Assembly (NCBI GenBank): GCA_947364595.1
Contig: CANATJ010000008.1
Location: 1-34,461 of the forward strand
Source of the DNA: an uncultured Bacillota bacterium
GTDB lineage: Bacteria; Bacillota_I; Bacilli_A; RF39; UBA660
DNA: 34,461 nt
Reading direction: 5' to 3'
The notes under the pieces are model-generated. The model saw only the letters and a list, made by a program, of their open reading frames with translations, was not told the origin of the DNA and did not search any database. The translations under genes were made by a program, and so were the position numbers. Numbering within the stretch: the first letter of the stretch is position 1; every line of letters begins with the position of its first letter. Shown here piece by piece: positions 1,522 to 33,275 of this stretch.

Positions 1522-1636
1522 TAAGAAAAACAGCACTCAATCTCATAGATTAAGTGCTAAACCATTTATATGGGCAAGTACTCAACTCTGCAAAGTTAAG
1601 TCTTCCCTTTTTTATTTTATGCAAGTTCCCTTGACA
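1522..1636 (-). ncRNA. Candidate antitoxin-like small RNA, copy 1 (no intact toxin)
   Basis: About 114 nt RNA predicted from a promoter and terminator. Order on the minus strand: 5' hairpin CAAG-GGAA-CTTG (1622-1633), an AU-rich CATAAAATAAAAAAGG linker, a long hairpin (1572-1607), then a terminator stem of about 12 bp (1532-1558) with a U-run (1523-1530). The same architecture recurs at 12717-12831 and 32201-32296, where the RNA is antisense to a small hydrophobic peptide transcript. Here the plus strand shows no start codon with an RBS and a stop for such a peptide. A hydrophobic stretch around 1455-1530 could be a remnant. Function is inferred from the other two loci. Confidence 0.6.
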
Positions 1637-1641
1637 TATTC

Positions 1642-12474: not shown

Positions 12475-12514
12475 ATTATCATCCTCCTACTTTCATTATA
12501 TCATATCATAATAA

Positions 12515-12539
12515 AAAATAGTAAATAATTTATATAAAA
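12515..12539 (+). repeat. 25-bp direct repeat, left copy
   Basis: AAAATAGTAAATAATTTATA plus five more bases, repeated exactly at 12874-12898. It marks the left edge of the toxin-antitoxin cassette and of its decayed second copy. Confidence 0.85.
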
Positions 12540-12543
12540 AGCA

Positions 12544-12572
12544 TTGCAATGCAAACTAACGTTTGTTATAAT
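12544..12572 (+). promoter_or_regulatory. Promoter of the locus-2 toxin-like mRNA
   Basis: -35 TTGCAA (12544-12549), 17 bp spacer, consensus -10 TATAAT (12567-12572). Transcription should start near 12579, where GGATACATTTGAA begins. That segment is the exact reverse complement of 12791-12803 in the terminator. Confidence 0.85.
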
Positions 12573-12641
12573 GAGCTTGGATACATTTGAAACATATCAG
12601 ATGCTTTCCCTTTCTTTTTTTAAGAAAGGTGGTGGTTAATT

Positions 12642-12719
12642 ATGAGTAAAAGAGAAATTTCTTTTTTTATTATAATTCTACTATTATTCTTCATAGTAAT
12701 CACCTTACTATTTAGATAA
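12642..12719 (+). CDS. 25-residue hydrophobic peptide, candidate type I toxin (locus 2)
   Basis: Short ORF: charged start MSKREIS, then about 18 Ile/Leu/Phe/Val residues, ending TLLFR. It would be a single membrane-spanning peptide. RBS AAAGGTGG lies ten bases upstream, and the mRNA has a near-consensus promoter 70 bp before the ATG. The mRNA 5' segment 12579-12591 is perfectly complementary (13 bp) to 12791-12803, the 3' arm of its terminator (12770-12815). Such 5'-3' pairing keeps several type I toxin mRNAs translationally silent. A convergent RNA (12717-12831, minus) is antisense to the 3' UTR. A peptide of the same length and start pattern is at 32302-32376. Toxicity is inferred from architecture, not shown. 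Confidence 0.75.
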   Translation: MSKREISFFIIILLLFFIVITLLFR

Positions 12720-12757
12720 TAAAAACATCTGATTTCAACATTAGTTGATTTCAGATG
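12716..12757. repeat. 42-bp direct repeat containing a perfect stem-loop, copy 1
   Basis: Identical to 12914-12955. It contains the hairpin CATCTGA...CAAC-ATTA-GTTG...TCAGATG (12726-12757) that terminates the antisense RNA of locus 2. Confidence 0.95.
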
Positions 12758-12831
12758 ACATCCAATAAGGGATAACATTTGATTCACCAATTCAAATGTA
12801 TCCTTTTTATTTTATGAAGTTTCCTTCATCT
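12717..12831 (-). ncRNA. Candidate antisense antitoxin RNA of locus 2 (small RNA copy 2)
   Basis: About 115 nt on the minus strand: 5' hairpin GAAG-GAAA-CTTC (12816-12827), a CATAAAATAAAAAGGA linker, a long hairpin (about 12770-12803), CCCTTATTGGATG, then a terminator stem (12726-12757) with a T-run (12721-12725). It covers the whole 3' UTR of the toxin-like mRNA (stop at 12719) and is perfectly complementary to it over about 95 nt. Layout and linker match 1522-1636 and 32201-32296. Antitoxin function is inferred. Confidence 0.72.
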
Positions 12832-12866: not shown

Positions 12867-12873
12867 TCCTATT

Positions 12874-12990
12874 AAAATAGTAAATAATTTATATAAAATA
12901 TTTACCCATACCTATAATAAAAACATCTGATTTCAACATTAGTTGATTTCAGATGTAATTTTTCAATTTATATAAATTCTAACATAAACA
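12874..12990. pseudogene. Decayed tandem copy of the locus-2 cassette (toxin ORF and promoter lost)
   Basis: The 25-bp left repeat (12874-12898) and the 42-bp hairpin repeat (12914-12955) recur in the same order as at 12515 and 12716. The distance between them is 198 bases shorter than... specifically, the start-to-start spacing is 40 bp instead of 201 bp, so about 161 bp holding the promoter and peptide ORF is gone. After the hairpin, TATATAAATTCTAACATAAA resembles the antisense promoter region (TATATACATTTTAACATAAA), but its -10 is degraded. The surviving hairpin plus T-run probably now terminates the lysozyme gene on minus. Confidence 0.7.
12914..12955. repeat. 42-bp direct repeat containing a perfect stem-loop, copy 2
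   Basis: Exact copy of 12716-12757. On the minus strand the hairpin is followed by TTTTTATTAT, so it can act as the terminator of the GH25 gene ending at 12996. Confidence 0.95.
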
Positions 12991-32165: not shown

Positions 32166-32194
32166 TTGTATATTTTATAATAATATGGTATATT
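32166..32194 (+). promoter_or_regulatory. Promoter of antisense RNA copy 3
   Basis: -35 TTGTAT (32166-32171), 17 bp spacer, -10 TATATT (32189-32194), with the start near 32201. The spacing from the -10 to the 5' hairpin (9 nt) matches copies 1 (8 nt) and 2 (10 nt). Confidence 0.75.
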
Positions 32195-32200
32195 CTAATT

Positions 32201-32296
32201 AGTGAGGGAAACCTCATAAAAAAGGAAACACTGTAACTTATCAGTGTCTACCTTATTTGTGGGTGACACTAAGCTAATGCTTGGTGTCTTTTTTAT
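32201..32296 (+). ncRNA. Candidate antisense antitoxin RNA of locus 3 (small RNA copy 3)
   Basis: About 96 nt: 5' hairpin GAGG-GAAA-CCTC (32204-32215), ATAAAAAAGGA linker, hairpin ACACTG-TAACTTAT-CAGTGT (about 32227-32247), ACCTTATTTGTGGGTG, then terminator GACACTAAGC-TAAT-GCTTGGTGTC (32265-32288) with a T-run (32289-32294). It is antisense to the 3' UTR of the peptide gene at 32302-32376, with both transcripts converging. Same order of elements as copies 1 and 2. Antitoxin role inferred. Confidence 0.72.
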
Positions 32297-32301
32297 TTAT
32301 C

Positions 32302-32376
32302 CTAAACCCCCTGATTTAAAATTAACAAAATTATAATTATAATTAATAACAAGACTAAAAAATCTTTTTTATTCAT
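32302..32376 (-). CDS. 24-residue hydrophobic peptide, candidate type I toxin (locus 3)
   Basis: Starts MNKKDF, then about 14 Leu/Ile/Val residues, ending LNQGV: a single membrane-spanning peptide. A strong GGAGG lies ten bases upstream of this ATG; an in-frame ATG two codons earlier is only four bases from it and is less likely. The pattern M-(S/N)-K-(R/K)-(E/D) and the length match the peptide at 12642-12719. The mRNA 5' part GGTGTCTGCC (32414-32423) can pair over ten bases (two G-U) with GGTAGACACT in its terminator region (32243-32252), mirroring locus 2. The terminator is the hairpin at about 32226-32248 with a T-run. Its own promoter is weak (TGTAACAAT, about 32430). Confidence 0.7.
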   Translation of the reverse strand: MNKKDFLVLLLIIIIILLILNQGV

Positions 32377-32630
32377 AATCATAAAACCTCCACTCTAGTC
32401 TAATGACTTGGAAGGCAGACACCAATAATTGTTACAACGTTTCCTGAAAAACAATATACACTTATGATAAAAATAATGCAAATATATAATTTGGAACTTT
32501 CATATTGAATTTTTCCTGAATTATAAATTTTCATCTATAAAAAATAAAAATTTGTAATCTTATAAACTAACAATTTATATAATTTATAAATTAATCTTTA
32601 AAAACTGTTTGAAAAATAAAATTTTTTTTG

Positions 32631-32736
32631 ATAAAATATTAAATGTTTTATAACAAATAGTAACGACACATGTATAGTCATAAGACTTGTAAATCTGATT
32701 ACGGTACAACTATTACCAAATCGATTTACAAGTCTT
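32631..32736 (+). promoter_or_regulatory. Leader with attenuator-like hairpin before the DUF2798 gene
   Basis: Possible promoter TTGATA near 32629 with TATAAC/TAACAA near 32650. It is followed by a perfect 14-bp stem: AAGACTTGTAAATC (32682-32695) pairs with GATTTACAAGTCTT (32723-32736), and TTTTTG follows. The 27-nt loop holds a second small hairpin (GGTA...TACC). This is a complete intrinsic terminator between the likely promoter and the gene start at 32769, so attenuation is possible. It may instead insulate the gene from upstream transcription. Confidence 0.55.
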
Positions 32737-32768
32737 TTTGTTATAAAATTTAGGAAGGAGGTTTTATC

Positions 32769-33275
32769 ATGCCAGAAACAAAAAATCAAAAAAGAATATT
32801 TGCTCTTATAACAGTTATTATAACAGTACCTTGTTTTGTATTTTATTGTTTAAGTATTGAAAACGGAAGGCTATTAAATGTTGATCCTTTATTTGGATTA
32901 GTCTTAATACCAATAGAATTAGTATTAGCATATATTTGCGCAACAAAAATTGGAAGTCCACTAGCTATTAAATTAGCCCTTAAAGCTGTACCCCCTAAAG
33001 ATTATAAGCCGAAAATTGTAGAAACAGCTATAGTATGTGCAACCGCATGCATTATGTGTCCATTAATGACATTTTTAGCTACCATCTTATATCAAGGAAT
33101 TTTCCCAGCATTAATATTTAAAGATAGTAGCTTTACATTAATAAATTTCTTCATAAATTTTATTCCAATTTTTTTACAAAGTTTTATACAAAACTTTCCG
33201 TTCGCCCTATTAGGACAACTATTCTTCATTCAACCACTTGTTAGATCAATATTTAAATTTATATATAAAAAATAA
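32769..33275 (+). CDS. DUF2798-family membrane protein
   Basis: 168 residues with four hydrophobic helices. It has the family start M.(E/K)(T/N)K.QK.IFALITVIITVPCFVFYCLS, and a second, similar half from about residue 80 (AIVCATACIMCPLMTFLATILYQG). Ends with a basic FKFIYKK. Function of the family is unknown. A perfect AAGGAGG RBS lies eight bases upstream. It is preceded by a terminator-like leader and followed by a bidirectional terminator, so it is a single-gene unit. Confidence 0.85.
   Translation: MPETKNQKRIFALITVIITVPCFVFYCLSIENGRLLNVDPLFGLVLIPIELVLAYICATKIGSPLAIKLALKAVPPKDYKPKIVETAIVCATACIMCPLMTFLATILYQGIFPALIFKDSSFTLINFFINFIPIFLQSFIQNFPFALLGQLFFIQPLVRSIFKFIYKK

Follow-up and report, generated by a model that had tools for sequence, protein, structure and literature searches.

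A probable type I toxin–antitoxin family, present in multiple chromosomal copies, in uncultured small-genome gut bacteria

Introduction

In the par/Fst system (pAD1 RNA I/RNA II), the 5'-UH ties up the 5' end of the toxin mRNA while the 5'-SL masks its Shine–Dalgarno (SD) sequence (PMC7472228). Binding of the antitoxin SR4 at the 3' end of bsrG extends SD sequestration and promotes decay by RNase III, as summarized in a Bacillus review whose only examples of SOS-driven type I toxins are from E. coli (PMC6562991). A long interaction between the 5' and 3' parts of the toxin mRNA is a hallmark of hok and aapA (PMC6733600), and the type I toxins of Clostridioides difficile (e.g. CD2517.1-RCd8) are peptides of 34–59 aa with a lysine-rich C-terminus, several of which are located on prophages (PMC6563280).

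Here we describe a locus (locus 3) in a stretch of 34,461 nucleotides (the window; contig CANATJ010000008.1 of assembly GCA_947364595.1) from an uncultured Bacillota bacterium of RF39, an uncultured order described previously (PMC10868615). The locus is very probably a chromosomal type I toxin–antitoxin module, one of seven to eight copies in this genome, of an undescribed family. Computation shows the anatomy and homology of the module, selection on its coding sequence and, at the RNA level, on both helices, and a predicted refolding; transcription, toxicity, decay by RNase III, action at the membrane and a physiological role are inferred.

Results

Layout of locus 3

The general features of type I systems are present at locus 3 as sequence signals, namely a short hydrophobic peptide gene with a ribosome-binding site (RBS) and an antisense RNA with its own promoter and terminator (Table 1). 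Both halves of the module had been proposed in an earlier note on this DNA, as a 24-residue peptide starting MNKKDF behind a GGAGG and a convergent RNA from a TTGTAT-17-TATATT promoter, and both were confirmed, the RNA at the level of its sequence signals. The peptide is hydrophobic and comprises 24–26 aa, depending on the start codon: GGAGG lies 10 nt from the MNKKDF start and 4 nt from a second in-frame ATG at 32382, which would give a 26-aa product beginning MIM. The start of the toxin mRNA is predicted at about 32446–32444, some 8 nt past the TATATT box and exactly at GGAAACGUUGUAAC. Folding of the full-length mRNA yields a minimum free energy (MFE) of −79.8 kcal/mol, which none of 200 shuffled sequences matched, and the locus carries three terminator-like sites compared with 0.1 expected. 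Each RNA has a terminator of its own, which falls within the transcript of the opposite RNA, and hairpin 1 of the antitoxin lies beyond the mRNA terminator and is thus not antisense to the mRNA.

The mRNA leader is a same-sense near-copy of the antitoxin hairpin 2 region, and its entire length (32444–32414) pairs with the mRNA 3' end in a helix of about 31 bp. The pairing of GGTGTCTGCC (32423–32414) with 32252–32243 (10 bp, two of them G·U), which the earlier note had put forward as a 10-base contact, was recovered, the helix itself being about three times longer. The antitoxin is a perfect complement of the mRNA 3' region, free of the G·U pairs that weaken the helix within the mRNA.

Locus 3 lies between an HD-domain gene and a DUF2798 gene. 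No other fetched locus of the family sits between such genes, and the flanking genes share no more than 32–42% identity with their homologues within the genus. Elsewhere in the window, a strong hairpin with a T-run behind it (32683–32740, plus strand; AAGACTTGTAAATC...GATTTACAAGTCTTTTT) precedes the DUF2798-like gene at 32769, in whose 5' region it resembles a putative attenuator; it has no Rfam match.

Table 1. Positions of the predicted elements of locus 3 and of the further copies in the window.
Feature	Position	Strand	Basis
Antitoxin RNA promoter, TTGTAT-17-TATATT	32166..32194	+	sequence; homologue consensus TTG...TATG.TATAAT
Antitoxin (antisense) RNA, predicted, ~95 nt	32200..32294	+	covariance model E 3e-8; fold z −6.5
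Antitoxin hairpin 1, GUGAGGGAAACCUCAU, GAAA tetraloop, near-invariant signature	32201..32217	+	homologue comparison
Antitoxin hairpin 2, sequence variable, pairing conserved	32228..32247	+	homologue pairs; fold z −6.5
Antitoxin intrinsic terminator (hairpin 32265–32288) and T-run	32265..32294	+	terminator prediction
Toxin mRNA, predicted, ~228 nt	32219..32446	-	fold z −9.5
mRNA 3' partner of leader; core is mRNA terminator hairpin 32249–32226	32224..32254	-	terminator prediction, folding
Toxin-like peptide ORF, MNKKDFLVLLLIIIIILLILNQGV, 24 aa	32302..32376	-	purifying selection in homologues
Shine–Dalgarno GGAGG of peptide ORF	32387..32391	-	sequence
mRNA 5' fold-back leader; partner is mRNA 3' end	32414..32444	-	pairing and folding analyses
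Toxin mRNA promoter, predicted, TTTGCA-18-TATATT (alternatively TTGCAT-17-TATATT)	32453..32482	-	position relative to conserved GGAA element, 81 loci
Locus 2 toxin promoter, LexA-like box CAAACTAACGTTTG at 12552–12565	12544..12572	+	promoter and box scan
Locus 2 toxin mRNA, predicted; ORF 12642–12719, MSKREISFFIIILLLFFIVITLLFR	12578..12812	+	ORF and folding
Locus 2 antitoxin RNA, predicted	12717..12830	-	covariance model E 1e-12
Third copy, antitoxin-like RNA, toxin ORF and leader missing	1526..1638	-	covariance model E 3e-6, match 1638–1574

Relation to known type I systems

The layout most closely resembles that of par/Fst, and the proposed action would resemble that of bsrG/SR4. As in par/Fst, a toxin mRNA of ~230 nt is faced by a convergent antitoxin RNA and the terminator regions are complementary (PMC7472228); the mRNA 5' end lies in a predicted helix (96% of 81 mRNAs), and local pairing between SD and leader is predicted. 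Unlike par, in which both RNAs use one bidirectional terminator and the repeats (DRa/DRb) are direct, the modules described here have two separate terminators, inverted repeats at the mRNA ends and an antitoxin with a non-antisense 5' GAAA hairpin. The Fst motif P-x-x-x-G/C occurs in none of the 81 peptides, and an Fst-like peptide, defined by this motif together with a charged C-terminal tail, was not found among them; a Pfam search gave no match.

With bsrG/SR4 and txpA/RatA of B. subtilis the modules share a convergent antitoxin that overlaps the mRNA 3' end over about 100 complementary bases, and the antitoxin action proposed below, SD masking combined with RNase III cleavage, would be similar to that of SR4. 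They differ in their shorter mRNA and antitoxin, in a peptide without sequence kinship (no family match), in a leader that copies the antitoxin's own hairpin region and in that searches of phages and viral contigs gave no prophage location. The Helicobacter aapA/IsoA and the hok/Sok systems likewise combine a long 5'–3' interaction with several paralogous copies per chromosome (PMC6733600), whereas the helix described here is not predicted to mask the SD, the antitoxin overlaps the mRNA 3' end, and neither peptide nor RNA sequences match a known family. Common to the C. difficile modules and ours are a small hydrophobic toxin, a convergent overlapping antisense RNA and a Gram-positive host (PMC6563280), but the peptides of the present family are mostly 22–34 aa long, chromosomal and family-restricted. 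Judged by these comparisons, the candidate modules are classed as a new family of their own among type I toxin–antitoxin systems and not as members of par or hok/aapA.

Copies in the window and in the genome

The earlier note had also pointed to the likeness of locus 3 to locus 2, which lies in the same window, and the relation proved closer than claimed: the loci are homologous, as a single covariance model describes both antisense RNAs (68 bits for locus 2, 47 bits for locus 3). Both antitoxins begin with a GAAA-loop hairpin (GAUGAAGGAAACUUCAU or GUGAGGGAAACCUCAU) followed by an A-rich linker and GGA. The covariance model was built from 19 sequences that include loci 2 and 3; the third copy in the window was not among them. 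In this third copy, which adjoins a tRNA-Arg gene, promoter, hairpins and terminator are intact, and it represents either an orphan antitoxin or a decayed module.

Locus 2 is followed by an apparent decayed tandem copy. The AT-rich stretch upstream of the locus (12511–12539) recurs 359 bp further on at 12870–12898, and the terminator segment 12716–12757 is repeated exactly (42/42) 198 bp downstream at 12914–12955; the remnant looks as if its middle had been deleted, and the 359-bp step agrees with the spacing of intact tandem arrays elsewhere.

Across the genome, six of seven examined copies contain a peptide ORF. Pairing of an antisense RNA is much stronger with its own mRNA than with those of other copies, with some cross-pairing of the C17, C2 and C18 copies; the values of this comparison are upper bounds because it takes in the region of the first antitoxin hairpin.

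Distribution of the family

A simple pattern search (hairpin with GAAA loop, A-rich linker, GGA) found three places in the genome to which the window belongs, as well as matches in 12 of 59 relatives, while the reversed pattern, used as control, found none. A covariance model comprising hairpin 1, linker and hairpin 2 of the antisense RNA (R1) matched eight places in this genome and had hits in 41 of 44 genus members; single genomes contained as many as 13 matches, and tandem pairs ~350 bp apart were frequent. Beyond the genus, the taxonomic family is represented by 53 genomes, of which about 32, from 26 other genera, contain matches. When applied to 395 genomes of the class, R1 matched 33 genomes of this family, counting the present one, and a single genome among the ~340 that belong to other families of the class; among 392 genomes of the phylum it produced nine matches, all within the same family. 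The only copy outside the taxonomic family (L068, G233:C32:11745-11809, in a genome of family f5) is a real copy of the RNA and reflects either transfer or mis-binning. Arrays in which two or three modules follow each other ~350 bp apart were seen in L011 and others, the L011 modules (G031:C3:40157, 40512, 40866) each with a different peptide.

Named matches belong to assemblies of uncultured Bacilli, Tenericutes or Erysipelotrichales, many of them from rabbit, ruminant or chicken gut. No covariance model of Rfam 15 matched at gathering or relaxed thresholds. A plasmid search returned two short partial matches only, which were judged to be chance, a phage search returned no match, and the single match to viral contigs lacked the rest of the element and was likewise attributed to chance.

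Coding evidence for the peptide

Of 150 distinct hairpin loci, 114 have a hydrophobic ORF of 17–45 aa with an SD sequence on the strand opposite to the RNA, a number that takes in a few chance hairpin matches from unrelated genomes. The other 36 loci, some of which are chance matches in unrelated genomes and some decayed, have no peptide passing the filter. Three types of peptide were seen repeatedly: M(S/N/T)KKDFL... (locus 3), M(S/T)KRE... (locus 2) and MKTKTF...KK (contig C17). Their ratios of synonymous to non-synonymous changes are 1.13, 0.63 and 0.94, respectively, compared with 0.32–0.35 expected (1.13 versus 0.35 for the locus 3 type), indicating that the ORF is under purifying selection. 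Searches of Pfam, NCBIfam, PHROG and PADLOC gave no significant family match. The peptide is probably a single hydrophobic helix that acts at the membrane.

Selection on RNA pairing

The claim that the differing stems of loci 2 and 3 reflect covariation needed qualification: two loci are insufficient for it, and covariation became visible once homologues were added. In the homologues nearest to locus 3, one inner position of the 5'–3' helix is U-A (locus 3), U·G (L007) or C-G (L016), and one A-U to G-C double change is found in the outer helix; two isolated mismatches, one per homologue, are also present. Double changes affect nine of nine pairs in hairpin 2 of the antisense RNA. Stem changes without compensation, named beforehand as the refuting outcome, were looked for in the homologues, and that pattern was not found.

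Family-wide, the 5'–3' helix is present with at least 15 pairs in the MFE structure of 96% of 81 mRNAs (median 25 pairs). In a direct test, for which the two ends were selected independently, cognate 5' and 3' ends pair at 87% of positions, compared with 65% for shuffled partners (maximum of 2000 shuffles 73%). A MAFFT alignment of the concatenated helix ends put rows out of register and was left out of pair counting. Duplexes of leader and 3'UTR have mean energies of −36.7 kcal/mol for cognate and −24.1 kcal/mol for non-cognate combinations, and 56 leaders have their cognate 3' region among the top three of 94. The middle element of the leader can also pair with a second site further upstream in the 3'UTR, which is complementary to the antitoxin terminator; this pairing too is cognate-specific (−15.4 versus −11.6 kcal/mol, permutation p 1e-4).

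Transitions between leader and antitoxin arm keep G·U pairing in 93 cases and break it in 16 (p 2e-14, an optimistic value because related loci are counted as independent, although both transition classes agree, with keeping-to-breaking ratios of 58:2 and 35:14). Independently chosen ends gave 69 versus 15. Because of this bias a duplicated DNA repeat does not explain the pairing, which points to selection at the RNA level; that the locus produces functional RNA, as the earlier note proposed, is well supported by these data on pairing.

Predicted refolding and proposed mechanism

The leader lies just upstream of the SD and has a predicted alternative pairing with it. Antitoxin binding was simulated by barring the 3'UTR from pairing, in thermodynamic folding that ignores kinetics, and under these settings the pairing of SD and leader increases at locus 3 from 0.11 to 0.97, and over 81 loci from a mean of 0.53 to 0.67 (Wilcoxon 7e-7), with rises of more than 0.3 in 19 loci and a fall of more than 0.3 in one. 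Overall SD exposure barely shifts across the family (0.20 to 0.18, p 0.06) and the start codon is predicted to be paired in every state of the 81 mRNAs, so that only locus 3 and a minority of the other loci show a clear switch. A simple model in which the helix closes the SD and trimming opens it was rejected in view of predicted accessibility.

In the mechanism that we propose, the leader, as a near-copy of antitoxin hairpin 2, would pair with the mRNA's own 3' end until the antitoxin binds there and displaces it. The antitoxin should outcompete the leader because its complementarity is perfect whereas the leader helix contains G·U pairs. The freed leader could then mask the SD, and the antitoxin–mRNA duplex would be exposed to RNase III, which this genome encodes. 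Upon a shortfall of antitoxin, the 5'–3' folded mRNA would persist and might leak peptide. Very probably, the opposing small RNA silences the peptide gene.

LexA-like boxes at toxin promoters

At least eight of ten matches to the Gram-positive LexA box were found between the −35 and −10 elements of 22 of 81 toxin promoters (0.4 expected) and, at the same threshold, in none of 80 antitoxin promoters. The lexA gene is present in all eight genus genomes examined, and seven of the eight loci have two LexA-like boxes beside it, the commonest combination being CAAACAAATGTTTG and CGAACAAATATTCG or a sequence close to it. A LexA-like box is present at the toxin promoter of locus 2 and absent from that of locus 3, so only some copies may be SOS-controlled.

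Discussion

Several properties of the family could also arise in other ways. A mobile repeat of the non-autonomous kind (MITE- or REPIN-like), with inverted ends that would only resemble RNA pairing, would account for the multicopy occurrence, the compact length of about 270 bp, the inverted repeats at either end of the mRNA and the ~350-bp spacing of tandem copies; given the bias of repeat mismatches towards those that keep G·U pairs (93:16), the conserved promoters and RBS and the coding selection, we consider it very improbable. Membrane proteins can be regulated by very short hydrophobic peptides, and the peptide might accordingly be a small regulatory or signalling membrane peptide whose level is merely tuned by the antisense RNA. 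The abundance of paralogues in single genomes, their three divergent types of peptide, each with a dedicated antisense RNA, the lack of a fixed genomic neighbour and the orphan antitoxin remnants speak against such a role, and LexA-like boxes at only some toxin promoters fit a toxin–antitoxin system better, which makes the regulatory peptide a quite unlikely explanation.

Control of the Hok/AapA type, in which the 5'–3' folded mRNA would be inert, 3' trimming would activate it and the antitoxin would catch the trimmed form, shares its long helix with the hallmark of these systems (PMC6733600). We retain it since the leader pairs cognate-specifically with a second 3' site, as expected if the leader switches partner after trimming. 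Yet 3' trimming is predicted to raise SD–leader pairing (mean 0.53 to 0.72; 0.11 to 0.997 at locus 3) and the helix is not predicted to sequester the SD, both of which render this type of control unlikely. The favoured reading is a type I module with an antitoxin that would displace the leader. Whether the whole family can be described in one scheme is a more tentative matter: conceivably, though somewhat short of probably, the leader is a G·U-weakened mimic of its own antitoxin in bistable competition for the 3' sequence, within a repeatedly duplicated, lineage-wide type I family in which LexA, and hence DNA damage, acts at a subset of toxin promoters.

The antisense RNA/peptide family appears, by the sequence searches made here, to be previously undescribed and multicopy in small-genome uncultured gut bacteria. 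The conserved 5' hairpin of the antitoxin offers an immediate search model (R1) for loci missed by databases, and with hundreds of naturally varied sequences the co-evolution of the mRNA ends, SD masking and antitoxin binding, a question of long standing, becomes directly testable. Several addiction-type modules in host-associated genomes of roughly 1 Mb are unexpected, and their copy number raises phage defence, stress arrest or selfish maintenance as possible roles. The LexA-like boxes found at part of the toxin promoters suggest that a Gram-positive lineage has type I toxins driven by the SOS response; if the leader is indeed such a mimic and LexA acts as proposed, these roughly 1-Mb genomes would carry a mixture of SOS-driven and constitutive modules.
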